Below are positions 3,358 through 36,100 of a DNA stretch of 64,000 nt, piece after piece. The translations under genes were made by a program, and so were the position numbers. The DNA is taken from contig NC_088102.1 in assembly GCF_036370855.1 (NCBI RefSeq), positions 67,713,601 to 67,777,600 on the forward strand, given 5' to 3'. Position 1 is the stretch's first letter; each line of letters opens with the position of its first letter. The notes under the pieces are model-generated. The model made no database searches, had not been told where the DNA came from, and saw only the letters and a list, made by a program, of their open reading frames with translations. The stretch comes from Dromaius novaehollandiae. Its lineage: Eukaryota > Chordata > Aves > Casuariiformes > Dromaiidae.

Positions 3358-3572
3358 GGATGCCTGCAGTCTGTAATCCCGGCATGGTGCCAGTGGCCAT
3401 ACCACCTCCTGCAGTGAACCCTCAGCACCTTTGTAACGAAGAGGACCTGAAATCTATCCAGGATATGTTTCCCAACATGGACAGGGAAGTAATCCGCTCA
3501 GTGCTAGAAGCGCAGAGGGGGAACAAGGATGCGGCTATCAACTCCTTGCTTCAGATGGCTGAAGAATCATAG
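3358..3572 (+). CDS. TOLLIP: TOLLIP last coding exon, CUE domain
   Basis: TOLLIP is a cytosolic and endosomal adaptor that restrains Toll-like/IL-1 receptor signalling. Its C-terminal CUE domain binds ubiquitin. The exon follows a pyrimidine-rich acceptor ending tgtcttcag and begins in phase 1 (one base from the previous exon). It reads about 70 residues to a TAG at 3570-3572. Visible features are a Pro/Val-rich linker ([14 protein letters not shown]), then a complete CUE helix bundle with the invariant MFP motif (DMFPNM), the [18 protein letters not shown] helix and the closing di-leucine SLLQM. The sequence matches vertebrate TOLLIP nearly residue for residue through the CUE. Only this exon is in the window; the C2 and TOM1-binding parts lie upstream. 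Confidence 0.96.
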
Positions 3573-9800: not shown

Positions 9801-12800
9801 TTGCACTGAAAGGTAAGAAAGAGAAATGTTGGCATAAAGGGTGAAATATTTCTCCCATTACTTAATACTTCTAGATCACATAAGTTTTTTCAAAATATGT
9901 TTGAGACTTGGAAAGGTTGAGAAATAGGGAACTATTTTTCTTTATTCACTGAACTAATTCAGAGCTATTTGTCCTCAAATTACAGGGGAATTGGACGAAA
10001 AGTAATTTCAAAGATTAGATGAAAATATTTGTCCATTTTACAATCCTCTGGCTGATTGGATGTTGTGGTAGTTTCTATTTTGGAAAGCTTACAGCAAGCA
10101 TAAGTGAGTAATGTGGATTGGGAAGTAAAAGGCCCTGAGCAGGAATGTTGTGCAGATATCTCATCCAGTTTAGCTTGCTCAGTGATGCTCAGTTCTGTCC
10201 TCCTGCTCATGAACTCAAGGTATATATCATAGATGCTCATTTAAAATCTGTGAATGTCTTTCATTTAAGCACCACAGTTCCACAAGTGCACTTTGACAGA
10301 AGAACAACGTAACCTTCATACCTGCCCAATTTTGGTGGTAGATTGTCAGACCATAAAACCTGTAAGTTACCTGCTAATGGGCTACGTTATTCAATGAGCT
10401 GCTTAAAATGTTTAATTTGGTCCACGGATTTGTTTAAAAGGCTTTATGCAGGGATATCAATAGATTACAGTAACTGGGTAGTTTCACTGTACATATGCGT
10501 ATTACTACATAACCATTCCCTACTGCAAAAGTCCCTGTAGTTGACAAGTTATTTGACTGGACAAGTTACTGTTCTGTTTCCTGATATAGGTAAATGCTTT
10601 TCTGTGGTAATTTTTAGTGAAACATCAGGATATGACATCAGGATAACATTTGGTTCTGATAAATATCATAGGGTGAAAATTTTGTGTTTTCTGATTAACT
10701 CGATACATTGTAGAAATCACGGGAAAAGAGCCCAGGACTGATTTTTATATTCTGCTCATTTTAAATATTAAGCCATTTACTAATCTGTAGTTCCATAACT
10801 GGAACTGTTTTGCTGCTATGATTGTATATTTAACATATATGGGGAATTTTTTGCTATAAAATTGAGACCTGCATTGCATTAATTTTATTTCAAGTTCTGT
10901 GGAGCTTGATATAGTAGAGTATAGCTAAATATATTTTAAGAGAAATGGTAGCTTTTTGTACATCAAACAAAGGTATGTCATCATGTTTTTCATGTAGTTA
11001 ATTTCTCTGTTTTAAAGTATCCACTTTTAGAGGTTTCTGAGTTCTATAATGCCAACTGTAGCATTCGTTTCAAAGAAAATCTGTCTGTTTGTCTTCTACT
11101 GAATTCTGTCCAGTTAAAGTGTATGAGTCCCTTGGGTTTTCTTCTGTTTAGGTTTGAGGGAGAAAAAAGAACAGATTTTGCTTTTAAAATTTTGGAAATT
11201 GTTTTTTTTTATGGAGATCAGAGAATACTCAGTGGTTTCTAGTATTTTCCAGTGGGCTGGTTTTCGAAGGGGGAAAAAAAAAACCTCACCAAGATAATCT
11301 CTTCTGAACAGTGAATTATGCTGTGGATTTTTTTTCATGAATGCAGTACATACCAACTGAGTATTGCAATAGGGTTGTCGAATTTAATTCGTAGGTTGCT
11401 GATCAGCTACCTGGAAATAACTTGGTATCCAACACTGAGGAATAGCCTCTGCATTTTCCATAATTTAAGTACTACTAAAATATTTTCAATTAGTAGTATT
11501 GCTGATACTGATCTCTGGTTGAAGATGCTCTGCAAAGCTTAGTGTTTCCAGTGGAATTAAGGAAATATTTCCCTGCTTTAGTTTTCCTTAGAGAGGCAAA
11601 TAATAACCATTAGGGGGCAGCTTAAGATTTAAACTGGAATGTACTAGCACTTTCATACAGTGCTTAAAATAATCCAGGAAAACCAGCAGACCAGAAAAAG
11701 TGTGGGAAGCCGTGTAACTAGTGAACATGGTACTAAATACTCAGAGTATAGCGACTAAGGTAGAAGGAGAAAATACCCACAAATTCTGTTGACTTCAGTC
11801 TGGTCTCAGCACTGCTAAAGACCAAGCCAACTTTAAGTGCTTAATTTTGTTCCATGTTACTGTGAGGGTGCTAAGTCATAGGTCAGGGTTCAGTGTGCAC
11901 AAACGCAATCAGCTCTGCAGGCATCCATTTGTCTAGACAGGATTAATAGTGGTAGCTCAGTGTTGTCGCTCCAGACCTAGCACAGCCAACCTACATGAAT
12001 GCCTCTTGTGCAGACATGGCCTCCCACAGGCAGAAGTGCTGGTTATTAGCTCCAGTTCTAGGCTCTCTGCGTGCTTGTGATGCCCAGAGTGGTAAATGCT
12101 CTGAAAGCCGGAGAGCGGAGGCTGTGCTGAAGCTGTCGAAGTGCCTGACCGAGCAGTCACTTCGCAGAACTGGCTGGATGTCTGCTCACAGTGGTAGCTG
12201 GTGGTCAGGTGCTGAGGGTTTTGCGGTGGAGTTATGGAGCGGCCAGTACACAGAGCTGGTGTGGCTTCAGACTCCGTTCCCCATGAAAAGGGGCCCAATT
12301 ACTGGATCAAAGAAGGTGCTAGGAGCAGCACAGCTGTGCTCCACTGTCTGAGCTAGTAACTCTGCTGAAGCCTGTGTACCTGCTGTGGGACAGGCACACT
12401 GGACAGCTGCGGGATGAATGAATTTAACAGTAAAATGCAAAACTTACAAGCCCTCCTATTTCTCTGCATCAGTTAATACTAATATGATGTCAGATCATGC
12501 CTAGGAAGGCCAATAGACATGGTACTACTAACTTCATTTGGGGACTGAATTTTGCTTCTAAATAAACATGTACAAAATGTGTAATTATTTGATTTATCAG
12601 TTCCTCCTTTGTTCTTCAGCTCAATCTCTGGGTCAGGCTTCAGACTTTTATTACAACAGCTACTGATACAGTAAGTGCTTCAAACAGTTCAGGTAAACAT
12701 GACAAACTGCTGTGGGGAAAATGCAGCCAAATTTCTTTGTAGCATAAATCCATTCAAAATCTTGTAGATAATGGAGGAAACATGCATAGTTTAAAAATGT

Positions 12801-13582
12801 AACTTATTTGCAAATATTGTTACAGATTATGGGGAGGAGAATTTTCTGTTTTTACAAAGTTCCTTGACTTCACCTGAAATATTCTTTAACTAGTTAGAGA
12901 GCTTTCATGCATACATAAACTTGTTTCTTCAAACTGAAGAAGCCACTGTTGATTTCTAAAGCCAGATGCATTTTGGTCTAGCATGCAGAATAACAGTGAT
13001 GAATAAAGCTTCCGCCTCCTCTTAATAGACTTGTCTTCCAGACATCACCTCTAATTAGAAGGAAAACACACCACAGCCTACATGTTTCCCCCTCTATCTT
13101 GGGAACTAGAATACAGTAAGCAAATCAGAACTCTTCCTCTGAGTACCTTTTATGCCAGTGAGCAGAGCTACTTAGCCATGGGTAAGAAATTTAACCTCAT
13201 CCAAGAAAAGGGTTGTGAGTGTCTTCATTCCCAGAGGCCACTAGAGACTACACCCATCTGAGTTTTAAAACTCCCTGGTGTCATTTAACTATCCATCTTC
13301 TAGATAGTGAAAATGAGTATCAAAGTCACCAGTCACCAAAACTGAAAAATGCTGAAAGTTTTATTGATCAAATAAGAGACAAAATGAACAGGAAAACAGT
13401 CTTTTCCCTGTCACTAAGATGTCTGGTAAGAATATTACATCCATATAAATGATACGCAATAAAACTTTCTCTAGCCACAAGAGTTAAGACCACCAGTATA
13501 GCCACAGTGTTTTATGGTTCTGTTTTCAGAGAGCCCTTACAACTTTGTCCAAAATACCAATTTTTGATAGAACTCATAAATA
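6803..13582. other. Intergenic region between TOLLIP and the mucin
   Basis: No coding exon is supported on either strand. The two flanking genes converge on this stretch. It is mostly AT-rich, with a G run and C run at 8647-8732 and a higher-GC patch at about 11.88-12.42 kb. That patch contains overlapping unsupported open frames on both strands (11957-12298 minus, 11995-12351 plus) with no known domain. Confidence 0.6.
8647..8732. repeat. G12 and C19 homopolymer pair
   Basis: Twelve consecutive G at 8647-8658 and nineteen consecutive C at 8714-8732, separated by a T/G-rich spacer. These are simple low-complexity runs able to pair with each other as a hairpin. Run lengths are likely to be imprecise in the assembly. 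Confidence 0.9.
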
Positions 13583-13592
13583 TTTATTTATT
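13583..13592 (-). promoter_or_regulatory. MUC5B: Mucin poly(A) signal (overlapping AATAAATAAA)
   Basis: Two overlapping AATAAA hexamers on the - strand, 231-240 nt beyond the stop codon. They give a short 3' UTR of about 250 nt, usual for gel-forming mucins. A further AATAAA on the - strand lies at 13360-13365 and could serve as a second site. Confidence 0.6.
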
Positions 13593-13822
13593 TCCATGAC
13601 ATACAGATTATTTTACATGGTCTTCCATTTTCCCCCTTAAATTGTATCACTTAAAAAGTACATACTAAGATTTAATTATTTGGCTTTTACTTTTTAACAT
13701 TTAAGAAATCAGAAAAGATGATAACAGAAACTGAAATCGGATAGCTTAAGAAGGAGCACAAGTTAGTCTGGGTATGATATGATTCCAGTTTTCCTAGGGG
13801 CTCTGCTTTCTTTTCCAAGTGA

Positions 13823-15167
13823 TCATCTCTTTCTTCTGCTGCTTTTCCTCTGCTGGGAACTTTCTGCTCCAGGGGCTTCTGAAGTGCATGCATTCGTGCA
13901 CTGGCATTGTTCCACGTAAATATAGTTATAACTGATGCTTGTTCCATTTTGGCAGGTCAGGGTCACCTCTCTTGTGTGGCTGCTGAGCTCCTGGCAACAG
14001 CTACAGTCATGTTGCATCTGGTTTGCTTCAATGGAATACCTATGCCCCGCCAGAGAAAAAAAGCATATCCTCCCATTAAAAACTGACACACAAAAAAACC
14101 CCTATAACTTTTGGGTTTATCTATCTATATATAACAGAAAAAAATTTTTGTATATGTGTCTATAAATATATATATACACACACAAATGAATGTGGTTTTA
14201 ATAACCTATCCCTTCAACAGTGAAACTATTCTTGCTTCCATTGAGTCTCAGAATAAGCTCCATTTTGCTTTATAGGGCACCTGTTTGGATCTGCTGTTAA
14301 CAATAGGTCAAAACCTGTTATGTATATATCTTTTTTTGTTGTTGTTTTTATATCTGGAGCTATAATTTTTGTTGCTGTTAATGAGGTTTTTTTAGTTCTT
14401 TGTTATCTTTCCTTTATGCCAAATTTAGTTCATAGTGCATAATAGAAGACTGAGAAAAATGAAAGCTGTAGACCAATTGTTGGTATGAAATAAAACCGTC
14501 TTACTAATCTATCTTTAGTCATCTTTGTACTTATAGGAATGCATTATAAGTAAATTGTTGTAAATTATGGACCAGTTTATAGGTGTCGCTTTTCCTATTA
14601 GCAGAACTGAAGAAAAGGAATATATGTGAATCAGGACCCAGTGTCGTCCTTCCACTGTGGGACATCAGGAATAAGTCTGCTGTACAAATTATACTAGTTT
14701 TATGATGGTGTAAATCGGAGAAGGTCCACAACATAAATGTTTCCCAAGGTTCTGCAGTGTATAATTTCTGTGCTTTGCCATCACTCATACAACATTGAGA
14801 ACTTTATTGCATTATTGTCACGCTGCCAGCTAGTGAGTGGAAATCATATTTGTGTAGCAATGTTGTTAACCCTGCCAAATTCTGAAACAAATCTCGGATC
14901 TGTGATCCAGCTCATTCGATTGAATTACTCGCTTCTCATAAGCACATCGCATTTGTTGATATTCTGTGATCGGTGCCCACTGATTGACTAAATGAAGAGA
15001 GACCATGAGAATAAACAAATCCAAGGAGATGTTCAGTTAACTTTTTGGAACTTACACTGATGAACCAGGACAAGTCCCATCACAGTACGCCAATTCGACA
15101 GGTTCAGAAGATTCGCATTCACCATAGCGGATCACGGTTTTTTTGCTGTAAGCTTTGCAGTTTGAAG
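13823..15167 (-). CDS. MUC5B: Mucin exons 40-41: CTCK cystine-knot domain and stop
   Basis: Exon 40 (15056-15167) and exon 41 (13823-14039), about residues 4600-4709. Motifs: [65 protein letters not shown] and [10 protein letters not shown]. This C-terminal cystine knot forms the mucin dimer in the endoplasmic reticulum. After the last knot cysteine comes a short tail ending in the basic cluster [10 protein letters not shown] before the TGA at 13823-13825. Confidence 0.93.
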
Positions 15168-18100
15168 CTTCAGAAAAGAGGAAAAAATAAACAGATGCCT
15201 CAAATCTCTAGTTGAGATGTAAATGAATGCTAACAACTTATTTTGAAGTGGATGATATCTGATTATTGAGAATCCATATATCGTATGAAACTAGTTAAGG
15301 AATACTGTGTAATGTGGCTGGAGACTTTATTTTTGTAATCTCTCTGCTGTAGTCTTTGGAACATAGCAATGTAAGATAGCTCAAGCTGAGGCTTGAGCGT
15401 TCATGGCTTAAGTTATGGAGCTAAATATCAAGCAAACAAAATTGCTTTTCCTTTTGAAGAGATGATCAGTGAAACACAGGATCTTGATAAACAGAGTAAA
15501 TGAAAACTGGAGGATGGAAAAATCCTCCCTTCTGCTCAAAAATAGATGGAAGTTGAATGTCATGTCTTTAAGCAGAAAACTTGCACACAGATTTACTTAC
15601 GTTTACATATCTTGCAGCAGCCGTCAGGAGTAGTCTCTGCTTCATTCTTTGCAAAAACATAGAGGAAGGGTTTGTAATAGGGCATAGATTGCAAAATCAG
15701 GAGTATGAATACTAGTTAGCATTATTACAACTGGTCAGAAGGCTCCTCTATGATGAACGCTGAATGAAAGCATGACTGTTTCAATGGCTGTGTCCCTGCC
15801 ATAGAAGTCTTGCATCCCTGTAGCCTCATAGGAAAATACTAAGCTTCTCTTATTAGTAATGCTACAGCAAGACTGATTTAACTCTTAAAGCATTCCTGAA
15901 ACTTTAGTAAAAGCAATTTTGTCATGCTCTACCTTATCCTTTCCTCCTTGTTCTTTGACGTTACATTCAATAGATGAAAAATTGATTAAAACTTACGAGA
16001 TCACACTCTTTTGGATTGAATTCAGGGCATGTTTTTTTAGTCTGGACTGCAACAAATTGATCTTCGATTTTCTCACATTTGTAATAGCTGCAGTTATCGA
16101 GTTGCAGGATCTCATCAAGCTAAGATGAAGAGAAAAGAACACAAATATTATTTCTACATTGTTATCAAGAATAATAGGGTTATTTCAAAAATGACTGAAC
16201 TAATTAAATTCTTGCACCTCAAGGATGACCAGATTCTTTCAAAATTCTTTCAAGTGGCAAAGGGGAAGTGCCAAACTTTCAACTACGGGTTGGCTGAAAG
16301 CTTAAATCGTGGATCTCAATACTTAGACTACACATCAGAAATCTGTAATTGACATCTATTCTCTTTTCACTGCCTAGTTAAGCATGTGTATCAAGGATTT
16401 GTTTTTCCAATCAAGTGTTCAGTTCTTAAAACTGGCCTCTAGTTTTTACAGAGTAATCTCCATGTTCATTAGTTCTTACTAGGAAGGGATGTGAGTTGAC
16501 TGGTAGCTGTTCTAACCTGTATTGACTAAAACAGAGATCTGAGAATTAAAAGGGATACTTACACTGAGCACCTGGACAGTGTTACTACTTAGTTTGATTC
16601 TGCAGGCTGCTTCGACACACTTCCCACAGCACGCTCCATCCTCTTTCTTATATTCATAACCCTGGTCACAAGAAGATGAAAGAGAAAGTATACTGAGGCA
16701 ATGGCAGAGAATTCTGGTCTTCCCGTAACTGGGTGCTGACTGCACAGTCTTCACAATCTGAACTCACCAGGGGGCAAGATTCTTCACAGTGAACTGGTTC
16801 ACATTGCAGGCTCTCTGGGTCTTTTTTAGGAATGCAGGTACAATTCTGACATGGATGAATTACTGTGTACACTCCAGCCTGGAAGATGGGGGGAAAAAGA
16901 ACATTCAGATGAAAACAGTCTCTATACAATGTATAAGTGGAGTTAAGTTTACTGAAATGCAAGTGCGACTGAGTTGCTTGGCTAGCTTGGAACATAAAGT
17001 TGTTTTGCTGTATGCCATATAAGAAACAAATGTTTGGAGGAAACTAACCAAAGCAATATAAAATAGTATCTAGAAGAGTAAAATGTGGATAAGACTGTTT
17101 TGAACTGCCTCGTTATTTTACCAGCTTTTCAACGCTCCATTTAAGATGAATTTTCTCCTGTAAGTCAGTAGTTGTTATAAAACAATAACAACTTACAAAT
17201 AGAGAGTATAATAATTGGATACATATGCGATACATAAGGAGAGATACCAGTTTACACCTGGACTTAGTTTTTCTGAAGGAGGTTCCAGTGCTTAAATTTT
17301 GACTAAAAAATTTAGCTATCAATTTTAGCAAAAGATTTGGATATCATTTCAAGCAAAAATCCTGGATTTATTTTTGAGGAGTCTCAGAGCTTGTTTCAAA
17401 AGCTCTTATTAGAATATTCTATATTCTATAATAGAAAATGAAAAGAGCTTATTTCAAAAGAGTTATTTCAAAAAACAGATGAATTTGGATGATTCGTCTG
17501 CTCCCCTGGAAATTTTAATCCCAGAAGTGGGAGAAAGTATAAAAAAATGTATGCCACTAAAAATGGTGTACTCTTATTTTATACTCCTTGTCGAGGAACT
17601 TTTCTGTAACAGTTTTTGTTTTCATCAGAAAAAAATAACTTTCAGTTCTGGGTTAGAGATGAAAGGACATGCATAGGAAAAAGAATTTTGTAAATGGCTT
17701 TTGTGATTGAAAGAGCGCACATTTCACTCTTAGCAATATACCATTGTAAGTGTAGTATTCTCACCATGTAAACTGTATCATTAACCACACAAACATCAGG
17801 TAGCCTTTCTGGAAAGAAAAACAAGAAGAAAAGTCCAAAATAAGCTCAAACTTTGAGATTAATGGAGAAGTCAAGATACAAAGATGTTATCACAGGTTGT
17901 TAATAACAGTGATTTTGGAAAACTCAAAGGCCATGTGCTTAAACCTCACTTTTATTATAACTGGATGTTGAAGTAAAGAGCACATCTTTGAAATGAACTA
18001 GGTGAGTTGAGGAAAAATGATATCAAGCTTGAGCTATACCTGAGCTATACAAATACCTTTCTTTCCCTTTAGGTATCAGGTTCTCTTAAAATTCAGTTAG

Positions 18101-21100
18101 TTGTCTCCTACTCAAATCCTAGAAGTCCAGTAACCTCAAAACATGCCTTTGCTATTGATTCTTTATGTCCTCTCAGAATGGGGCTTGGATGGAAGATTGA
18201 GTGGAAAAGGCTGTATTTCTTACTGGGGTACTATAAATAATTTGACATCATGACAGAGCCCGTTCGTGTCTTTCACAGAATCGCTTCAAACTCAGCTATT
18301 CCTTTGTTTTGAACTTCATGTTTCAGACTTAATTATGGCTATCTCTTCCTCTTGGTTCTAGTATATAGACAAACATATATAACTGGTGGATTTTTAAATT
18401 TTTATCAGTATTCCACAATAGTGTAAATATAATTGAATTGTTGGTGTATCAAAAATAGCTACTGCTTTATGAAGAAGAATTTGATTCACTCGGTATTGTT
18501 GCTTCTCTTTTACTTGCTTCTGTACTTAACTATTAAGCTCTTTGCTTGTTTATTCTTGTGTTTATGCATCTTTGTTTAGCTCTAGTTAGGCTACTGTTAG
18601 TAATACAACGTTACACTAATAACATTAAATTACATTAATAACCTTTACAATCTGCAGATAAAGAGATACTTGAGCAATATCAACTACTTGAAGTCTCCAG
18701 ATATTGTCCAGCTCTCCTACCCATTCCAGTTCTGTCAGCAGACTTTCATCGAAAATAACATTTTGTTTTTAAATCAACTTCTAAAGTGTATTTAGCTAAA
18801 AATGGATGTTTGTTCACTGAACCATAACAATTTAAGGAAAGTTTTGACATTACTGTGGTATGTGCATCACCTGCTTAGATAATGATAGAAGTGCAAGTGT
18901 AATTTACCACAGTACGTAGGCGTGTGTGTGCGCGCGTGCGTGTGTGTGTGTATATATATATTTATATATATATGCATTTTTAATACTTACCACATATATA
19001 TTCAGGACAACATGGGTTTTTTGATACTACAGCCCTGGCAAAAAATCCTTTTGGACAAATGGGTAGCTCCTTTGTTTGGCATGGGGGTGGCTGGCATTGC
19101 ACAGTAGCAGTGAGTGGGTCACAGATGCACTCCTGGCATTCGCTATTCCATTTCTCTCCAGGCTGAAAATATATAAATGATTTACTCATAAGCATTCTTT
19201 CATTCCAGTTATTCTGAGTCAACTTCAGTTAGACTCTCAAAACTTGTAGGTCTTTCAGATTAGCATTTTCCTAGCATATGATTCAGGTCTTAAGAACAGG
19301 CAAGCCGAATCACAGCTAAATCACAGAATTATCTTATGTGTAGAAGGAATAAGATTCTAATGCTTTCATAGCTGGTCTACTTATTGCCCTGATGTCTAAA
19401 TCTCTTTTATTAAAAAAGTCTCTGCTGTTGTATTAGTGAGCATTTTCATCTCTATTACTTAAAGGTCTGGTGGTGCCACGTTGAAGAAATAAACTGTATC
19501 AGGTCATTTGTAAGATGGACAAATTTGGTACTGAAATACATGCAGGTTGATATGAATTGGCTATAAGAAGACAGAAATCAAGCTGTGTTTTAGAAGTAGT
19601 GATATATTAGAAAAAAATAGGGGAACCACCTTTCGTGGAGGATTGACGTCAGTACAGCTTCTTTCTACTGAAGTGGTGAGGGGTGTTGCTGTGGTTGGTG
19701 AGGCAGAAGAAGATACAGGTGGTGTGGATGATGAAGCTTGTGTTGTAGTTCCTGAGGTTGCTGAAGTGAAAGGAGTTGTTGAAGGACACGGCCCTTGAAA
19801 TGGGTCAACTTCACATTCCTTGTTGCAAAGTGCATAAAAATTACAGCCAGCGCTATCTGTTCTGTTGTATACAACTTCCCCTGTAGAGGAAAATTAGAGG
19901 AGAAATTAAAGGAAATATTTAGAAAATATTGCAAAAATATACATAAAAGCTCTATTTTTAGATGATGTTGAGCGTTATGTTCAGTTGAATACAGTCCTAA
20001 GCGTTCATATTACATCTGAAAATTTTTATAGCTGTGAAATAAAAAACTTACCAGGAGAAAACAAATCACCAAGCACATGACAAAAACATGGAGTTGTTCG
20101 ACCTAATGTAACATATGTACTTTCTTCTGTTGCAAAAGGTGTGCTGGGGGAAGAACTGAAGGTTGCAGAAGTGCTTCTTGTAAGGTGAGTTGATCGTGGT
20201 CTACCAGTCGTATATACTGTTAAGCACAAAACATAGTACAGGATTTTGATCTCTTAACTGTAATGTAATGGAGGGATCTGTTCAACATTCTAGTAGATCA
20301 AAACAACGTTTTTGTTACATTCAGCTATTTTACCTACTTCACTAAGCAGAGATTTTGGAAATCTTTTAGCTCTACATGAATTATCAACTGGGCTTTGATA
20401 AATCCCAGATGATGGGAACTGAAGAGGGTGAAAGTAGTAGTAGTTGATGCTGGAGTCTCAGTTGCTAAAGTGGAGATTTCTGCAGGAGAGGGCGTGACTG
20501 GGGACCTTGTGATAGTACCTGGGGGTGCTACGGTTGTCTCGCAGTGTTGCTGGTCACAGCAGTACAGCCTGAGCTGGTAGTTAAAGCACATGGCGTACTT
20601 GCTGATCTGATCCTTGTTTCTGCACACCAGAGACCTTTAGCTAAACTTTTTTTGACATTTTCAGTCACCACTGTCTTCCTCAAATTTCAGGGTAAATAAT
20701 GTCAAGCCACAGGGTCAATTTATAGACTTGTAAATACAGTTACTAATATCATAAAGACTGATAGATTTAAAAAAAACATTGGTGTAAGAAGAAACAGAGG
20801 TGACAGTGGAAGAAGTCACAGGTAATGATAGATAGTGATAGCAATGTTATGTTGAAATAACTACGTGTAACCTTCCCAAAGGAAGACATGGGTATACCTT
20901 GGTTGCTTCAGATAACAGCACTTCTTGGAAAAGAAAGTGGTGGCAGTACCTTGTCCAGTAGAAAAAACAGAGCTTGCAAGAATGATTGTAGTGCCAGAAG
21001 TGGTTGTCCATGGTGTCTCATAGATTGTAGAGGTTGTAGTGGTTGGTGCTGGAGTCTCAGTTGCTGAAGTGGAGGTTTCTGCGGGAGAGGGCGTGGTCGG

Positions 21101-24100
21101 GAGCCTTGTGGTGGTGCTTGGGGGTGCTACGGTTGTCTCGCAGTGTTGCCGGTCACAGCAGTACAGCCTGAGCTGGTAGTTGAAGCACATGGGGTACTTG
21201 CTGATCTGATCCTCGTTTCTGCACACCAGCCCAACGTCGAGGCTGCACTGAAGTTTCTGGCCCAGGTCCTCCAGGCTGATGTCAGGGTAGTTTTCAGCCT
21301 GACACTGGATGGCTTGAGGCTTTGCGCATATTTGGAAGCCGGCAGCTCGGATGTTCTCAAAGGTCTCCATGTCTCCTCCCTGGCTGCCAGAGCTCGGGAA
21401 GTCCACGTCAAACCACTGTGTCCAGGCACAGCGTGGCTGGCAGCTGGGGGAAGAGGTGATGGCAGTGCTTGTGGGTGAGGTGGACACTGTTGGTGTTGGT
21501 GTGATGGTGGTGGTTCCTTCTGTTGGATGGGGAGAGGTCTGGGAGGTAACAGCAGCAGTTCTGGTGGGTGTGGGAGGCACTGTTGTTGTGGGCTTGACTG
21601 CGGTTGTGCGTTCTGTGGGAGGCAGAGAGGTCTGGGAGGTGACAGCGGTGCTGGCGGGTGAGGTGGGTGCTGCTGTTGTGGGCTTGATGGTGGTTGTGCC
21701 TTCTGTGGGAGGGGGAGAGGTCTTGGAGGTGACAGCGGTGCTGGCAGGTGAGCTGGGTGCTGCTGTTGTGGGCTTGATGGTGGTTGTGCCTTCTGTGGGA
21801 GGGGGAGAGGTCCTGGAGGTGACAGCGGTGCTGGCGGGTGAGCTGGGTGCTGCTGTTGTGGGCTTGATGGTGGTTGTGCCTTCTGTGGGAGGGGGAGAGG
21901 TCTGGGAGGTGACAGCAGTGCTGGCGGGTGAGCTGGGTGGTGCTGTTGTGGGCTTGATGGTGGTTGTGCCTTCTGTGGGAGGGGGAGAGGTCCTGGAGGT
22001 GACAGCGGTGCTGGCGGGTGAGCTGGGTGCTGCTGTTGTGGGCTTGATGGTGGTTGTGCCTTCTGTGGGAGGGGGAGAGGTCTTGGAGGTGACAGCGGTG
22101 CTGGCGGGTGAGGTGGGTGCTGCTGTTGTGGGCTTGATGGTGGTTGTGCCTTCTGTGGGAGGGGCAGAGGTCTTGGAGGTGACAGCGGTGCTGGCAGGTG
22201 AGCTGGGTGGTGCTGTTGTGGGCTTGATGGTGGTTGTGCCTTCTGTGGGTGGGGGAGAGGTCCTGGAGGTGACAGCGGTGCTGGCGGGTGAGGTGGGTGC
22301 TGCTGTTGTGGGCTTGATGGTGGTTGTGCCTTCTGTGGGAGGGGCAGAGGTCTTGGTGACAACTGTTGTGCCCGCAGTGGTTGTCCATGGTGTCTCATAG
22401 ATTGTAGAGGTTGTAGTGGTTGGTGCTGGAGTCTCAGTTGCTGAAGTGGAGGTTTCTGCGGGAGAGGGCGTGGTCGGGAGCCTTGTGGTGGTGCTTGGGG
22501 GTGCTACGGTTGTCTCGCAGTGTTGCCGGTCACAGCAGTACAGCCTGAGCTGGTAGTTGAAGCACATGGGGTACTTGCTGATCTGATCCTCGTTTCTGCA
22601 CACCAGCCCAACGTCGAGGCTGCACTGAAGTTTCTGGCCCAGGTCCTCCAGGCTGATGTCAGGGTAGTTTTCAGCCTGACACTGGATGGCTTGAGGCTTT
22701 GCGCATATTTGGAAGCCGGCAGCTCGGATGTTCTCAAAGGTCTCCATGTCTCCTCCCTGGCTGCCAGAGCTCGGGAAGTCCACGTCAAACCACTGTGTCC
22801 AGGCACAGCGTGGCTGGCAGCTGGGGGAAGAGGTGATGGCAGTGCTTGTGGGTGAGGTGGACACTGTTGGTGTTGGTGTGATGGTGGTGGTTCCTTCTGT
22901 TGGAGGGGGAGAGGTCTGGGAGGTAACAGCAGCAGTTCTGGTGGGTGTGGGAGGCACTATTGTTGTGGGCTTGACTGCGGTTGTGCGTTCTGTGGGAGGC
23001 AGAGAGGTCTGGGAGGTGACAGCGGTGCTGGCGGGTGAGGTGGGTGCTGCTGTTGTGGGCTTGATGGTGGTTGTGCCTTCTGTGGGAGGGGGAGAGGTCC
23101 TGGAGGTGACAGCAGTGCTGGCAGGTGAGCTGGGTGCTGCTGTTGTGGGCTTGATGGTGGTTGTGCCTTCTGTGGGAGGGGGAGAGGTCTTGGAGGTGAC
23201 AGCGGTGCTGGCAGGTGAGGTGGGTGCTGCTGTTGTGGGCTTGATGGTGGTTGTGCCTTCTGTGGGAGGGGGAAAGGTCCTGGAGGTGACAGCGGTGCTG
23301 GCAGGTGAGCTGGGTGCTGCTGTTGTGGGCTTGATGGTGGTTGTGCCTTCTGTGGGAGGGGGAGAGGTCTTGGAGGTGACAGCGGTGCTGGCGGGTGAGC
23401 TGGGTGCTGCTGTTGTGGGCTTGATGGTGGTTGTGCCTTCTGTGGGAGGGGGAGAGGTCCTGGAGGTGACAGCGGTGCTGGCGGGTGAGCTGGGTGCTGC
23501 TGTTGTGGGCTTGATGGTGGTTGTGCCTTCTGTGGGAGGGGGAGAGGTCTTGGGGACAACTGTTGTGCCCGCAGTGGTTGTCCATGGTGTCTCATAGATT
23601 GTAGAGGTTGTAGTGGTTGGTGCTGGAGTCTCAGTTGCTGAAGTGGAGGTTTCTGCGGGAGAGGGCGTGGTCGGGAGCCTTGTGGTGGTGCTTGGGGGTG
23701 CTACGGTTGTCTCGCAGTGTTGCCGGTCACAGCAGTACAGCCTGAGCTGGTAGTTGAAGCACATGGGGTACTTGCTGATCTGATCCTCGTTTCTGCACAC
23801 CAGCCCAACGTCGAGGCTGCACTGAAGTTTCTGGCCCAGGTCCTCCAGGCTGATGTCAGGGTAGTTTTCAGCCTGACACTGGATGGCTTGAGGCTTTGCG
23901 CATATTTGGAAGCCGGCAGCTCGGATGTTCTCAAAGGTCTCCATGTCTCCTCCCTGGCTGCCAGAGCTCGGGAAGTCCACGTCAAACCACTGTGTCCAGG
24001 CACAGCGTGGCTGGCAGCTGGGGGAAGAGGTGATGGCAGTGCTTGTGGGTGAGGTGGACACTGTTGGTGTTGGTGTGATGGTGGTGGTTCCTTCTGTTGG

Positions 24101-27100
24101 AGGGGGAGAGGTCTGGGAGGTAACAGCAGCAGTTCTGGTGGGTGTGGGAGGCACTGTTGTTGTGGGCTTGACTGCGGTTGTGCGTTCTGTGGGAGGCAGA
24201 GAGGTCTGGGAGGTGACAGCGGTGCTGGCGGGTGAGGTGGGTGCTGCTGTTGTGGGCGTGATGGTGGTTGTGCCTTCTGTGGGAGGGGAAGAGGTCCTGG
24301 AGGTGACAGCGGTGCTGGCAGGTGAGCTGGGTGCTGCTGTTGTGGGCTTGATGGTGGTTGTGCCTTCTGTGGGAGGGGGAGAGGTCCTGGAGGTGACAGC
24401 GGTGCTGGCAGGTGAGGTGGGTGCTGCTGTTGTGGGCTTGATGGTGGTTGTGCCTTCTGTGGGAGGGGGAGAGGTCCTGGAGGTGACAGCGGTGCTGGCA
24501 GGTGAGCTGGGTGCTGCTGTTGTGGGCTTGATGGTGGTTGTGCCTTCTGTGGGAGGGGGAGAGGTCCTGGAGGTGACAGCGGTGCTGGCAGGTGAGGTGG
24601 GTGCTGCTGTTGTGGGCTTGATGGTGGTTGTGCCTTCTGTGGGAGGGGGAGAGGTCCTGGAGGTGACAGCGGTGCTGGCAGGTGAGCTGGGTGCTGCTGT
24701 TGTGGGCTTGATGGTGGTTGTGCCTTCTGTGGGAGGGGGAGAGGTCCTGGAGGTGACAGCGGTGCTGGCGGGTGAGCTGGGTGCTGCTGTTGTGGGCTTG
24801 ATGGTGGTTGTGCCTTCTGTGGGAGGGGCAGAGGTCTTGGGGACAACTGTTGTGCCCGCAGTGGTTGTCCATGGTGTCTCATAGATTGTAGAGGTTGTAG
24901 TGGTTGGTGCTGGAGTCTCAGTTGCTGAAGTGGAGGTTTCTGCGGGAGAAGGCGTGGTCGGGAGCCTTGTGGTGGTGCTTGGGGGTGCTACGGTTGTCTC
25001 GCAGTGTTGCCGGTCACAGCAGTACAGCCTGAGCTGGTAGTTGAAGCACATGGGGTACTTGCTGATCTGATCCTCGTTTCTGCACACCAGCCCAACGTCG
25101 AGGCTGCACTGAAGTTTCTGGCCCAGGTCCTCCAGGCTGATGTCAGGGTAGTTTTCAGCCTGACACTGGATGGCTTGAGGCTTTGCGCATATTTGGAAGC
25201 CGGCAGCTCGGATGTTCTCAAAGGTCTCCATGTCTCCTCCCTGGCTGCCAGAGCTCGGGAAGTCCACGTCAAACCACTGTGTCCAGGCACAGCGTGGCTG
25301 GCAGCTGGGGGAAGAGGTGATGGCAGTGCTTGTGGGTGAGGTGGACACTGTTGGTGTTGGTGTGATGGTGGTGGTTCCTTCTGTTGGAGGGGGAGAGGTC
25401 TGGGAGGTAACAGCAGCAGTTATGGTGGGTGTGGGAGGCACTGTTGTTGTGGGCTTGACTGCGGTTGTGCGTTCTGTGGGAGGCAGAGAGGTCTGGGAGG
25501 TGACAGCGGTGCTGGCAGGTGAGGTGGGTGCTGCTGTTGTGGGCTTGATGGTGGTTGTGCCTTCTGTGGGAGGGGGAGAGGTCCTGGAGGTGACAGCAGT
25601 GCTGGCGGGTGAGCTGGGTGCTGCTGTTGTGGGCTTGATGGTGGTTGTGCCTTCTGTGGGAGGGGGAGAGGTCTGGGAGGTGACAGCGGTGCTGGCAGGT
25701 GAGGTGGGTGCTGCTGTTGTGGGCTTGATGGTGGTTGTGCCTTCTGTGGGAGGGGGAGAGGTCCTGGAGGTGACAGCGGTGCTGGCAGGTGAGGTGGGTG
25801 GTCCTGTTGTGGGCCTGATGGTGGTTGTGCCTTCTGTGGGAGGGGGAGAGGTCCTGGAGGTGACAGCGGTGCTGGCAGGTGAGGTGGGTGCTGCTGTTGT
25901 GGGCTTGATGGTGGTTGTGCCTTCTGTGGGAGGGGGAGAGGTCCTGGAGGTGACAGCGGTGCTGGCGGGTGAGGTGGGTGCTGCTGTTGTGGGCTTGATG
26001 GTGGTTGTGCCTTCTGTGGGAGGGGGAGAGGTCCTGGAGGTGACAGCGGTGCTGGCAGGTGAGCTGGGTGCTGCTGTTGTGGGCTTGATGGTGGTTGTGC
26101 CTTCTGTGGGAGGGGGAGAGGTCCTGGAGGTGACAGCAGTGCTGGCAGGTGAGGTGGGTGCTGCTGTTGTGGGCTTGATGGTGGTTGTGCCTTCTGTGGG
26201 AGGGGCAGAGGTCTTGGAGGTGACAGCGGTGCTGGCAGGTGAGGTGGGTGGTCCTGTTGTGGGCCTGATGGTGGTTGTGCCTTCTGTGGGAGGGGGAGAG
26301 GTCCTGGAGGTGACAGCGGTGCTGGCAGGTGAGGTGGGTGCTGCTGTTGTGGGCTTGATGGTGGTTGTGCCTTCTGTGGGAGGGGGAGAGGTCCTGGAGG
26401 TGACAGCGGTGCTGGCGGGTGAGGTGGGTGCTGCTGTTGTGGGCTTGATGGTGGTTGTGCCTTCTGTGGGAGGGGGAGAGGTCCTGGAGGTGACAGCGGT
26501 GCTGACGGGTGAGCTGGGTGCTGCTGTTGTGGGCTTGATGGTGGTTGTGCCTTCTGTGGGAGGGGGAGAGGTCCTGGAGGTGACAGCGGTGCTGGCGGGT
26601 GAGGTGGGTGCTGCTGTTGTGGGCTTGATGGTGGTTGTGCCTTCTGTGGGAGGGGGAGAGGTCCTGGAGGTGACAGCGGTGCTGGCGGGTGAGGTGGGTG
26701 CTGCTGTTGTGGGCTTGATGGTGGTTGTGCCTTCTGTGGGAGGGGCAGAGGTCTTGGGGACAACTGTTGTGCCCGCAGTGGTTGTCCATGGTGTCTCATA
26801 GATTGTAGAGGTTGTAGTGGTTGGTGCTGGAGTCTCAGTTGCTGAAGTGGAGGTTTCTGCGGGAGAGGGCGTGGTCGGGAGCCTTGTGGTGGTGCTTGGG
26901 GGTGCTACGGTTGTCTCGCAGTGTTGCCGGTCACAGCAGTACAGCCTGAGCTGGTAGTTGAAGCACATGGGGTACTTGCTGATCTGATCCTCGTTTCTGC
27001 ACACCAGCCCAACGTCGAGGCTGCACTGAAGTTTCTGGCCCAGGTCCTCCAGGCTGATGTCAGGGTAGTTTTCAGCCTGACACTGGATGGCTTGAGGCTT

Positions 27101-30100
27101 TGCGCATATTTGGAAGCCGGCAGCTCGGATGTTCTCAAAGGTCTCCATGTCTCCTCCCTGGCTGCCAGAGCTCGGGAAGTCCACGTCAAACCACTGTGTC
27201 CAGGCACAGCGTGGCTGGCAGCTGGGGGAAGAGGTGATGGCAGTGCTTGTGGGTGAGGTGGACACTGTTGGTGTTGGTGTGATGGTGGTGGTTCCTTCTG
27301 TTGGAGGGGGAGAGGTCTGGGAGGTAACAGCAGCAGTTCTGGTGGGTGTGGGAGGCACTGTTGTTGTGGGCTTGACTGCGGTTGTGCGTTCTGTGGGAGG
27401 CAGAGAGGTCTGGGAGGTGACAGCGGTGCTGGCGGGTGAGGTGGGTGCTGCTGTTGTGGGCTTGATGGTGGTTGTGCCTTCTGTGGGAGGGGGAGAGGTC
27501 TTGGAGGTGACAGCGGTGCTGGCGGGTGGGCTGGGTGCTGCTGTTGTGGGCTTGATGGTGGTTGTGCCTTCTGTGGGAGGGGGAGAGGTCTTGGAGGTGA
27601 CAGCGGTGCTGGCGGGTGAGCTGGGTGGTGCTGTTGTGGGCTTGATGGTGGTTGTGCCTTCTGTGGGAGGGGGAGAGGTCTTGGAGGTGACAGCGGTGCT
27701 GGCGGGTGAGCTGGGTGCTGCTGTTGTGGGCTTGATGGTGGTTGTGCCTTCTGTGGGAGGGGGAGAGGTCCTGGAGGTGACAGCGGTGCTGGCAGGTGAG
27801 CTGGGTGCTGCTGTTGTGGGCTTGATGGTGGTTGTGCCTTCTGTGGGAGGGGGAGAGGTCTTGGAGGTGACAGCGGTGCTGGCGGGTGAGGTGGGTGCTG
27901 CTGTTGTGGGCTTGATGGTGGTTGTGCCTTCTGTGGGAGGGGGAGAGGTCTTGGAGGTGACAGCGGTGCTGGCGGGTGAGGTGGGTGGTGCTGTTGTGGG
28001 CTTGATGGTGGTTGTGCCTTCTGTGGGAGGGGGAGAGGTCCTGGAGGTGACAGCGGTGCTGGCGGGTGAGGTGGGTGCTGCTGTTGTGGGCTTGATGGTG
28101 GTTGTGCCTTCTGTGGGAGGGGCAGAGGTCTTGGGGACAACTGTTGTGCCCGCAGTGGTTGTCCATGGTGTCTCATAGATTGTAGAGGTTGTAGTGGTTG
28201 GTGCTGGAGTCTCAGTTGCTGAAGTGGAGGTTTCTGCGGGAGAAGGCGTGGTCGGGAGCCTTGTGGTGGTGCTTGGGGGTTCTACGGTTGTCTCGCAGTG
28301 TTGCCGGTCACAGCAGTACAGCCTGAGCTGGTAGTTGAAGCACATGGGGTACTTGCTGATCTGATCCTCGTTTCTGCACACCAGCCCAACGTCGAGGCTG
28401 CACTGAAGTTTCTGGCCCAGGTCCTCCAGGCTGATGTCAGGGTAGTTTTCAGCCTGACACTGGATGGCTTGAGGCTTTGCGCATATTTGGAAGCCGGCAG
28501 CTCGGATGTTCTCAAAGGTCTCCATGTCTCCTCCCTGGCTGCCAGAGCTCGGGAAGTCCACGTCAAACCACTGTGTCCAGGCACAGCGTGGCTGGCAGCT
28601 GGGGGAAGAGGTGATGGCAGTGCTTGTGGGTGAGGTGGACACTGTTGGTGTTGGTGTGATGGTGGTGGTTCCTTCTGTTGGAGGGGGAGAGGTCTGGGAG
28701 GTAACAGCAGCAGTTCTGGTGGGTGTGGGAGGCACTGTTGTTGTGGGCTTGACTGCGGTTGTGCGTTCTGTGGGAGGCAGAGAGGTCTGGGAGGTGACAG
28801 CGGTGCTGGCGGGTGAGGTGGATGCTGTTGGGCTGGGCGTGATGGTGGTTGTGCCTTCTGTGGGAGGGGGAGAGGTCTTGGAGGTGACAGCAGTGCTGGC
28901 GGGTGAGGTGGGTGCTGCTGTTGTGGGCTTGATGGTGGTTGTGCCTTCTGTGGGAGGGGGAGAGGTCTTGGAGGTGACAGCGGTGCTGGCAGGTGAGGTG
29001 GGTGCTGCTGTTGTGGGCTTGATGGTGGTTGTGCCTTCTGTGGGAGGGGCAGAGGTCTTGGGGACAACTGTTGTGCCCGCAGTGGTTGTCCATGGTGTCT
29101 CATAGATTGTAGAGGTTGTAGTGGTTGGTGCTGGAGTCTCAGTTGCTAAAGTGGAGGTCTCTGCGGGAAAGGATGTGGGCTCTGGAGTTGTCATTGCGAG
29201 AGGTGATGTTGATGTGGCTGAGCTTTGAGGCAGAATAGTTGTGCTTTCTGTCTCTTTAGGTGATGTTGCAGGTGTTTCTGTTTTTTGGGCATTGGTCTCT
29301 TTGTTTGGTGTTGTTGGTCTGAGTTTTGTCTGTAGTGTAGGAATTGTTTGTGTATATGTTGTTGATTGTTCAGCAGCAGTTGTTTTGATACCTGATGTTG
29401 TTCCTGGTGTTGTAGTTTGTATTTCAGAACATGGTATATAAGTACAACATAATATTCTTATTTCGTAGTTATAGCAGGGCTTAGATTGTTGGTCTTCGTT
29501 ATTGCATATCAGGCCTGTGCTTTGACTACATGTTACTGTTTGGTTCAGGTTTTGTAATAACGTATCTGGGTATTCTTTGGCTCTGCATTCAACGCTACTT
29601 GGATTTTTGCATACACTGTATCCTTTATATCTGAGATTTTCAAATGTTTCATAGTCTCCGCTGTCCTTTCCGTTTTCAGGCTGTGTGCTATCATACCATT
29701 CTGACCATGCACATATTTTCTGCACACATACAGTTGTCACTGGTGTTGTGGTTATCATTCCTGTAATTAAAGAGAAGAAATGTAAGTCCTGTGTGCTCAT
29801 ACTAAAGGAAGTGCCAAGAGGCAGTTACGCATCTTCCATGCATTTTAGTGAACGTGCTTCGACCATCTTGAATTTCATTTCTTATGTAGGTTTTGATGTG
29901 ATGTTTATATTCTTTCTGTTGTGGTACTTAAGATGACTCTTTTTTTGTAATTTTTTAGTTAAACATAGTTAATAGATACCTTTTTGTGTTGAATCTCACT
30001 GCATAGGACAAGGCCATGTTGAGAAATGCATTTATATTTGCTACGGTAAAAATAAGAGGAGGTTTGATTCCTTGCTATTGTCTCTGTACTTATTTATCCC

Positions 30101-33100: not shown

Positions 33101-36100
33101 ATGCTTGGTAATATTTTCCTGGTTCAACCTGTTAGAAAAAAGAAAAGTTAAAATATACATCCTGCCTTCTCAGTTCTTTCCTAGCTTTGCTAGATCAATT
33201 TTCTTAAGCTTGTAGTATCTCAGAAGAAAGGCTTAAATCAATGATTTCTTTTTCTTATGTTTATATACACTGTTAAACATCAGAGATGATGCCAGATAGT
33301 AAATCTAAGTCATGTATTCAGTAGCTAGTATTGCCCCATTTTTAGACAGCTAGAGTCATGTCTCAGTGAAGAATTAGATTCTTGTTCCCAAGCAGTCCCA
33401 GGCAACCACAACTGAAAATTAAGGTGTCTACCCATAGAAAGCACTAAGGTAATAAAACAGCACGGATCTATCCCATACCGTTTGGTGTGTACTTAGTGCC
33501 AGTTGAAGGCTATGCTGAGGCTTTGTCATTACCATCCCAGAATGTTACTGTTTCACTGAGCTTGTGTTCTGTACATGGCATATGAGAAGTATTAGTCAAG
33601 TTATACCATAAGAAAGTGTATAGTCATTCTGAAATTATTATTCTTTCCTACTATGACAGTGTTATTTCCTATGAACTAAACGAGTTGTTATTTTCTATAG
33701 GTAGGGACTAGAAATCTGCAGGTCACGTATATTCAGTGGCATGTAGGTGGACATGATTCAGTGTATTAGAAGCTTCACTAATACACAGACCTTGTCTTCA
33801 CACGGTCAACTCCAGCCCTAGTGATACCTGAGAGTGACAGGCAGCAAAGACATTGCTGTTGATGATGCTACACTGCTTCTCTGACCAGGACTTTCGATAA
33901 GGGTTGGTAGAACATGGGTCCTTTATGCAGTCAGCATCAGGACATGTAGAGGATACTTTCCAGCTGTTTGCAAACTCTAGGACATTCTCTACCACAGACT
34001 GGCTCCTTGTAGTAAAGTCATTGATGCCATTGCCATCATAATTTCCACAGAGGCCACAGATCTGGCCCTGCAAAAGGAAGTAAATAAAATAATGATGGAT
34101 GTGAGAAAACTTGAAGCAACATCTGAGACTGAAAGAACACCTGACATTCAGCTCTTTGAATGGAGCCATTCCATTCTAACTTTCCCCAACCTCTTCATCC
34201 TTTGAAAATATTTTACATATTCTGGAAAAGCATCCATCTGTTTCTTAAACAACAGAACATTACCACTAAGGCTAGAAGGATACTGTTACTGACTTTTCTT
34301 TTTTTAAATCTGGATAGTGAAAACCATCTTGTTGCTGCATTGTACTATATTTGAGATACATCTTTATCAAGGAAACAAGGACTCAGCTGACTCAGCTTTT
34401 AATTTATGCCTTGCTTCATACCATGGATGCACATATAGAAAGCAGCATCACAAATCTGTCATTAAAAACTACCAGTCAAGCCACTTAATCTACTCATTGA
34501 GTCTTCACCATTATGACTGCTAACAGGGATAAAAAGAAATGACATTTTCCTTGCACATCCCAAAATATTTTTCATTCCAGATTTATGGGTACATAAAACT
34601 GCGATAGGCTACAATAGATGCTATGCTTTCTTTATGAATCTAAGATATATATTTCCATATTGCTATTTTTTAATGAAATTCCAGTGGGCTAAGCAGCTAA
34701 CAAACCTATGGTGCTGAAATAAACTCATTCTAAATTACACCCAGATGTATGTACCACATACAATGTCAGTGTGGTATGCAATTAAGATAGCAAATTTTTC
34801 ATTTTCTACAGTTTTTAATACCTACTTAGATGTCATAAGCTAGGAGAAAGCATGATAACAGGCATACACTTTCCTTATTACCTGTTTAGATATGTGCTTG
34901 AAAAATGCATGGTAGCATTTTACAAGAGGCTTTCACTAGTGGTATTTCACTTTCTTGTTCTTGAAGTATGATAAATGGACCTTTGTGTCAATGATAGCTG
35001 GAAACAATGGATTACCTTCAAGACCAAGACTGTGCAGTTGATTTCTGCTCATGTAGCTAGGTAACTTTAATGAGGTCTGATAATCTTTACCAAGGTTCGC
35101 TGAGTAATTTTAACAAAATCAAATCATCAGAAAGCTGTTTGCTCATTCAAGCTCTGTCAGACCAAACAGGTACTGAATGCTGCCTCCAGAGTGCAGAACA
35201 GCAGCAGGATGTTGACATGGCTTCCTGAAGTACCAGAAGAATGGAAAATAACATGGGATCTCCTGCAGGAACGCTAGAGGCATTTCATGTTTGGGATCTT
35301 GGCAGGGTCTGAGCAAAATTCACTTCCTGTCCAAATCTGGACTGTACACTGCCATCTAACTGCTAGGTACATACCTGAAAATCAGCACCGAGCTTTATCA
35401 AGATGCTGGTTTTCTTGTCCCACATGAGGATCAGTCCACTGGTGGTCTCAATTACCAAGTACATACCCATGTAGCGGACTGTGAATGGCACCTGACCTTT
35501 TTGTCCTCTTTTCACCACGCTGACATGCTCCTCACCAAGTATCAGTTCATAGCTCTGAAACAGGAAAAAAGGTAATTAAAAATGAACCTAATAACTGCAG
35601 CTATGTTCTTAAACATCTTTCTCCAGTTTTGGGAGCACTACAACTGGTCTATGTAAAGAAAGTGAAAAATCCAAATGATAAAAAAACTAAACTATATAAT
35701 TCAAATCTCAGGTTCCTAGAATTCCGGTAAAAATGTATTTTAAATGGTGTAGGTCAAAAAGGGTGTATAGGTAGTCATGGAGGAACTACAGTGCACAGAA
35801 TAAAACTATCTTCTGACATGGTACACTAAATTTCTGCCAGAGTTATTTCTCCTGTAGAGCTGTACTTTGCTTAGTGATGGTACAAGATAGTTTTGTAGGG
35901 GTGGGAAATGAAAAAGATGGGAAGCTCTACCAAATAGTTCATGGGTTTTGCTTTAAGCTTAATTTACAAGTTGATTTGCATTTTTAAACTATTTTCTGCA
36001 GCTTTCTTGCAGCAATGGATATCTTGGCTTCTCCTAAGCCTTAAACAGATACAGACCAAAACTGTTCTGTGTGCAAAACCTATTTACCTCTAGGAAAACT

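Follow-up and report, generated by a model that had tools for sequence, protein, structure and literature searches.

Background

The C-terminal region of the gel-forming mucin MUC2 consists of a D4 assembly (VWCN-VWD4-C8-TIL), 3.5 VWC domains and a cystine knot (CK), and its dimer contacts include VWCN, VWC1 and the CK; MUC6, in the same excerpts of that paper, has no VWD4 and no VWC domains (Gallego and others 2023, PMC10082768). The C-terminal region of human MUC5B has been proposed to aid granule packing, with a calcium-dependent N-terminal contact, although the sections of the source on which we draw do not assign this role to D4; they also give human MUC5B a GGSH sequence instead of GDPH (Ridley and others 2019, PMC6851316). 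For birds, the available text of a 2006 study describes chicken Muc5B as lacking this C-terminal VWD domain (Lang, Hansson and Samuelsson 2006, PMC1552070). Here we analyse a mucin gene on the minus strand of a 64,000-nucleotide stretch of the Dromaius novaehollandiae genome (contig NC_088102.1, G000:C5:67713601-67777600, hereafter the window). Judged from the genome sequence, it is very probably the MUC5B gene of a bird in which the D4 assembly, along with the VWC' module, was lost from the genome.

Absence of the D4 assembly between exons 33 and 34

The window gene is referred to as A, and its paralogues in the same cluster as B (MUC5AC-like), C (ovomucin-like) and D (MUC2-like). In gene B, the homologues of exons 33 and 34 are separated by 6,688 bp, compared with 467 bp in A. 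Seven exons were located in the 6,688-bp space (VWCN, VWD4a with its GDPH motif, VWD4b, VWD4c, C8, TILa and TILb), and the phases demand one further small exon in the block; when a small exon after TILb was sought with a motif known from human mucin, C yielded a candidate, and B and D none. D4 exons could be placed in C and D as well, with no anchor set for VWD4c and TILa in C or for TILb in D. In each of the three paralogues the VWCN and VWC1 exons begin in phase 0; the homologue of exon 33 ends in phase 0 in B, and the D4 block is bounded on both sides by phase-0 introns in the paralogues. Colinear homology between A and the paralogues proceeds from exon 33 to VWC1 and on to exon 35, skipping D4 and VWC', and a C-terminal D4 assembly like that of human MUC5B was not found in gene A. 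The GDPH self-cleavage motif of VWD4a is retained in B and D, and reads GNEH in C.

An earlier sequence-only reading of this DNA had joined the phase-0 end of exon 33 to a phase-0 exon starting PGEKW, a VWC-type exon that normally follows D4, and had put the gaps between these exons at about 0.17, 0.47 and 1.2 kb with no VWD, C8 or TIL in them. All of this was borne out. Exons 32, 33, 34 and 35 splice into one open frame, with AG and GT sites at the exon 33-34 junction and introns of 171, 467 and 1,182 bp in a window that is free of N (Table 1). Exon 34 is the VWC1 exon. It aligns with the exon that follows D4 in B and C, and its N-leaf scores 92 against VWC1 of B versus 34 against VWCN of B. 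On these scores we reject the reading of exon 34 as a VWCN exon. The exon 35 peptide is similar, by eye, to the gene B peptide PGCAVNDTFYP.

Table 1. Positions of the features discussed; window coordinates for gene A and its neighbour, coordinates of the respective gene or contig elsewhere
Feature	Position	Strand	Remarks
Pfam VWD matches	49951-50193, 36289-36375, 33999-34076		interpreted as D1 and as D3 in two parts
Central PTS exon	20864..29824	-	open for 2,987 codons, 53% S+T+P, 6 CysD WxxWFD motifs
Exon 32 as spliced	20052..20155	-	acceptor set by rule (candidate)
Exon 33	19630..19880	-	251 bp, ends in phase 0, PRK then donor gtggtt; homologue in B 42730-43080
Intron 33-34	19163..19629	-	467 bp
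Exon 34, VWC1 module	18991..19162	-	172 bp, starts PGEKW, phase 0 in, phase 1 out
Intron 34-35	17809..18990	-	1,182 bp; site of the VWC' exon in paralogues
Exon 35	17765..17808	-	44 bp, phase 1 in
VWC3 N-leaf exon, retained	16768..16878	-	
C-terminal cystine-knot exon region, retained	13826..15207	-	open frames 15055-15207 and 13826-14101
CUE domain, convergent neighbour of gene A	3435-3557	+	Pfam CUE, E 1.7e-13
VWC' exon in paralogues	B 35080-35184; D 22948-23052		105 bp, phase 1-1
VWC' motif in gene C	21908-22009		flanking splice sites give 105 bp, phase 1-1
Gene B, MUC5AC-like	C5, about 67.79-67.85 Mb		VWD matches
Gene C, ovomucin-like	C5, about 67.92-67.97 Mb		VWD matches
Gene D, MUC2-like	C5, about 67.98-68.05 Mb		VWD matches
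Gene read as MUC6	C5, from 68.109 Mb	opposite to other mucins	VWD match, position

Searches for relics and displaced copies

The D4 queries from the paralogues were compared with the interval 17809-20051 of gene A and with 200 dinucleotide shuffles built from that interval, which is shorter than the control stretches of C and D. Within this interval the scores were 32 for VWD4a, 27 for VWD4b, 31 for C8, 28 for TILa and 23 for TILb, values that were reached by 122, 142, 45, 54 and 179 of the 200 shuffles, respectively. In C and D these queries gave scores of 47-255, which no shuffle of the 200 attained. VWC-type queries did find sequence in the interval: B-VWCN (61), D-VWCN (60) and D-VWC' (63) each scored above all 200 shuffles, while B-VWC' scored 33, reached by 26 of 200. 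All VWCN and VWC' matches in the interval fall on the VWC1 exon, and when that exon was masked the scores decreased to 26-32 (30-32 for VWCN alone). With a longer target of 7 kb, the number of shuffles equal to or above the score was 9 for VWD4a, 17 for VWD4b, 13 for VWD4c, 45 for C8, 4 for TILa, 3 for TILb and 3 for VWC', counts for unmatched scores since the shuffles were those of the 2.2-kb interval. Comparisons of two introns of A with the three paralogue regions by blastn yielded short matches only, with E of 0.017 or weaker.

That the D4 exons are still in place, having diverged beyond detection, would be in line with the identity of only about 38-54% between A and B in the exons near the gap, and with a VWD4c score slightly above most shuffles. 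We nevertheless consider it scarcely credible: the 467-bp intron is too small for a D4 of some 400 residues, C and D are clearly detected with the same queries, and the VWC1 and VWC3 queries find their own exons in A.

With an E cut-off of 0.01, a search of the whole genome with VWD4a yielded at least 31 matches. The three strong ones (1.3e-53, 1.8e-25 and 1.8e-25) are those in the paralogues B, C and D, the fourth (9.5e-8) is located on contig C2, and two matches inside the window sit in the D1 and D3 regions. Such a search for VWD4 exons elsewhere in the assembly had been proposed with the sequence-only reading, and its strong matches were confined to B, C and D. No orphan strong match was seen on any contig among the matches listed, and since no relic was found in the interval either, there is no sign of a hidden or moved D4. 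Mucin loci are difficult to assemble, as stated in the accessible text of PMC1552070, and D4 exons that exist in the bird could have been dropped or collapsed in the assembly. Such an artefact is highly improbable given the window free of N, the lack of an orphan match, and an independent chicken assembly that likewise is without this VWD in the same portion of that study (PMC1552070). The absence of D4 is real in this assembly and agrees with the chicken MUC5B record.

Identity of gene A and organization of the cluster

The VWD matches on C5 reveal further genes upstream of A, namely B, C and D and one gene on the opposite strand. From their order, the cluster is read as MUC6, MUC2, ovomucin-like, MUC5AC and MUC5B, names that would stand or fall with that order. 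Gene A is the last gel-forming mucin of the cluster and is convergent with a gene encoding a CUE domain, which we take to be TOLLIP from its domain and from the expected synteny; human MUC5B also lies beside TOLLIP. An identical gene order is printed for the chicken cluster in the available part of PMC1552070.

The domain content of gene A points in the same direction. Its N-terminal exons align in order with those of B and include three VWD regions, with the D2 region visible only through alignment to B. The large central exon, rich in proline, threonine and serine (PTS), contains CysD motifs as in MUC5B, the VWC1, VWC3 and VWC4 exons remain, and the C-terminal cystine knot is present, with 11 cysteine columns invariant among A, B and C (D was left out of this comparison). 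Human MUC5B thus resembles gene A in its CysD/PTS exon, VWC modules and CK and, on the reading of the CUE gene given above, in a place next to TOLLIP. It differs in having D4 and seven Cys domains, as given in the excerpts of PMC6851316, whereas gene A has no D4, no VWC' and six CysD motifs.

The closest relative of A among the three genes compared is the neighbouring gene B, whose exons flanking the gap align with those of A but which retains VWCN-VWD4 (with GDPH)-C8-TIL and VWC', and has a far longer central frame. This proximity would also be expected if A were a lineage-specific duplicate, other than MUC5B, that shed domains. We regard such an origin as very unlikely in view of its MUC5B place, next to the CUE gene taken for TOLLIP, and of a cluster order shared with chicken.

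Several observations weigh against the reading of gene A as a MUC5B that lost D4. The exon loss is read from genome sequence, and gene A is identified as MUC5B by its place in the cluster and its resemblance to the paralogues. In exon 33 the donor, gtggtt (19624-19630), is weak, with 5 of 8 consensus positions matched; the donor of B at this position, gtatgt, is stronger, and the exon 35 donor of A also scores 5. The VWD4c query scores 37 in 17809-20051, as high as which only 13 of 200 shuffles came. Finally, that the loss is one event shared with chicken is an assumption.

Loss of VWC' and the origin of exon 34

The VWC' exon is 105 bp long and of phase 1-1 in all three paralogues. Its motif pattern, sought in A from 16900 to 20051, matches the VWC1 exon only. 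The sequence-only reading had described a clean, phase-preserving removal of one block of about eight exons. The clean loss of D4 in phase holds up, with phase-0 borders and no relic or displaced copy, but the single block does not, because VWC' is missing as well and VWC1 is retained between VWCN-VWD4-C8-TIL and VWC'. A deletion whose two breakpoints fell in phase-0 introns may have removed the D4 assembly, and a separate second loss would have taken the phase 1-1 VWC' exon. The frame is preserved since both lost pieces are phase-symmetric (D4 0-0, VWC' 1-1).

Alternatively, exon 34 could be a fusion of VWC1 and VWC', produced by a deletion that began within VWC1, ended within VWC' and took the intervening intron and half of each leaf, with VWC' partly retained. 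The cysteine spacing of the C-leaf is 4,7,14,0,4 in exon 34, compared with 4,7,16,0,4 in VWC1 (3/3) and 4,6,14,0,4 in VWC' (3/3), such that the first part of exon 34 is spaced as in every VWC1 and the last part as in every VWC', for which a fusion offers a one-step explanation. The scores of the last part against B, C and D do not separate the two (30, 49 and 34 for VWC1; 28, 51 and 49 for VWC'). Over the whole C-leaf the best score belongs to a VWC1 (33, 66 and 41, versus 25, 48 and 63 for VWC'), a proline before the CC pair is found in exon 34 and in two of the three VWC1 but in none of the three VWC' exons, and a 6-bp shortening of VWC1 yields the same exon length (172 bp, versus 178 bp in B and C). 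This shortening fits exon 34 as well as a fusion does, and the scores do not decide; we hold the fusion to be possible but doubtful.

Chicken precedent and age of the loss

A bird MUC5B without D4 is not new, given the chicken report of 2006 in the text available to us (PMC1552070). According to that text, chicken Muc5B is, like gene A, the terminal gel-forming mucin of this cluster, with a central CysD/PTS region and no C-terminal VWD, and the chicken assembly had a gap at the 3' end of Muc5ac, whereas here the 3' end of the MUC5AC-like gene is present, with D4 (PMC1552070). What is new is the gap-free locus, the exon borders, the co-loss of VWC' and the retention of D4 in MUC5AC. Judging by the papers listed, our literature search turned up nothing further about D4 in the MUC5B of birds, weak evidence of absence since subscription papers and preprints were outside its scope. 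The accessible part of a 2013 paper on chicken MUC2 notes that current annotation gives the chicken ovomucin alpha-subunit the name MUC5B (PMC3549977). This is a naming trap: the alpha-subunit gene, which bears a C-terminal VWD, corresponds to gene C and not to the window gene.

The losses in gene A and in chicken Muc5B are most likely of one descent, and if they represent one event, a date before the divergence of palaeognaths and neognaths is probable. With the VWD reported absent from chicken Muc5B as well, D4 seems not to define MUC5B in birds. A bolder proposal, to which we give little credence, is that one ancient loss before the split both removed D4 and fused VWC1 with VWC', and was passed on to the MUC5B of all living birds.

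Other features of the locus and the genome

Three of the six CysD units in the central exon of A (window 21140-23960) are near-identical in DNA amid 90-bp PTS repeats, which suggests recent homogenisation. The central frame of gene B (G000:C5:67806653-67826980) is open for 6,776 codons and contains 36 WxxWFD (CysD) motifs, compared with 6 in A. Gene C lacks an extended PTS frame from D3 to D4, its longest minus-strand frame being 100 codons in the stretch examined. For 11000-20999, Pfam searches of the three minus frames with stops masked gave only sub-cut-off fragments of Mucin2_WxxW and Cys_knot, plus frames of the 10 kb adjoining the window gave no Pfam match, and no Rfam match was obtained in the window at gathering thresholds.

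The genome measures 1.47 Gb, and the sizes of its chromosomes C1-C5 (219, 170, 132, 88 and 78 Mb) are those expected of a bird. Its alpha-A globin (141 residues, three exons joined) scores 305.7 bits against PDB 3wtg, which is emu haemoglobin; the next single-chain globin, at 272.6, falls 33 bits short, and six fused haemoglobin chains stand higher through the counting of two domains. Its beta globin (117 residues, two exons) matches 3wtg at 115 of 117 positions, although for beta exon 2 taken separately 2zfb comes slightly ahead (159.4, versus 155.8 for 3wtg). On the globins, a palaeognath near emu is likely; alpha-D globin gave no help in this placement. Elsewhere in the genome, ten VWD-bearing units with near-equal scores and a spacing of 7.5-8.6 kb are located at G000:C9:15498014-15571428, in an array that we take to resemble the FCGBP type. 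A cytochrome b match with six internal TGA codons and one TAA codon at G000:C4:77542095-77542589, the sole match in the assembly reported for that family, probably represents mitochondrial DNA transferred to the nuclear genome.

Implications for the C-terminal dimer

With the CK cysteines intact, covalent dimers should still form. The protein of gene A would be expected to dimerise through the cystine knot and to multimerise through D1-D2-D'-D3, like MUC6, a gel-forming mucin that also lacks VWD4; the difference, going by the parts of PMC10082768 cited above, is that MUC6 has lost its VWC domains too, whereas gene A retains the VWC1, VWC3 and VWC4 exons. The C-terminal dimer of the gene A protein would be without the VWCN contact and without its globular base, and we infer that any share of D4 in calcium- and pH-dependent granule packing has been lost and the C-terminal packing altered. 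Should the ancient loss with fusion prove true, the C-terminal dimer of MUC5B in all living birds would be a plain VWC stalk without a globular base. A MUC5B that naturally lacks D4 offers an opportunity to test the role of this assembly, with the adjacent MUC2-like, ovomucin-like and MUC5AC-like genes, which all retain D4 in this bird, as an internal control.

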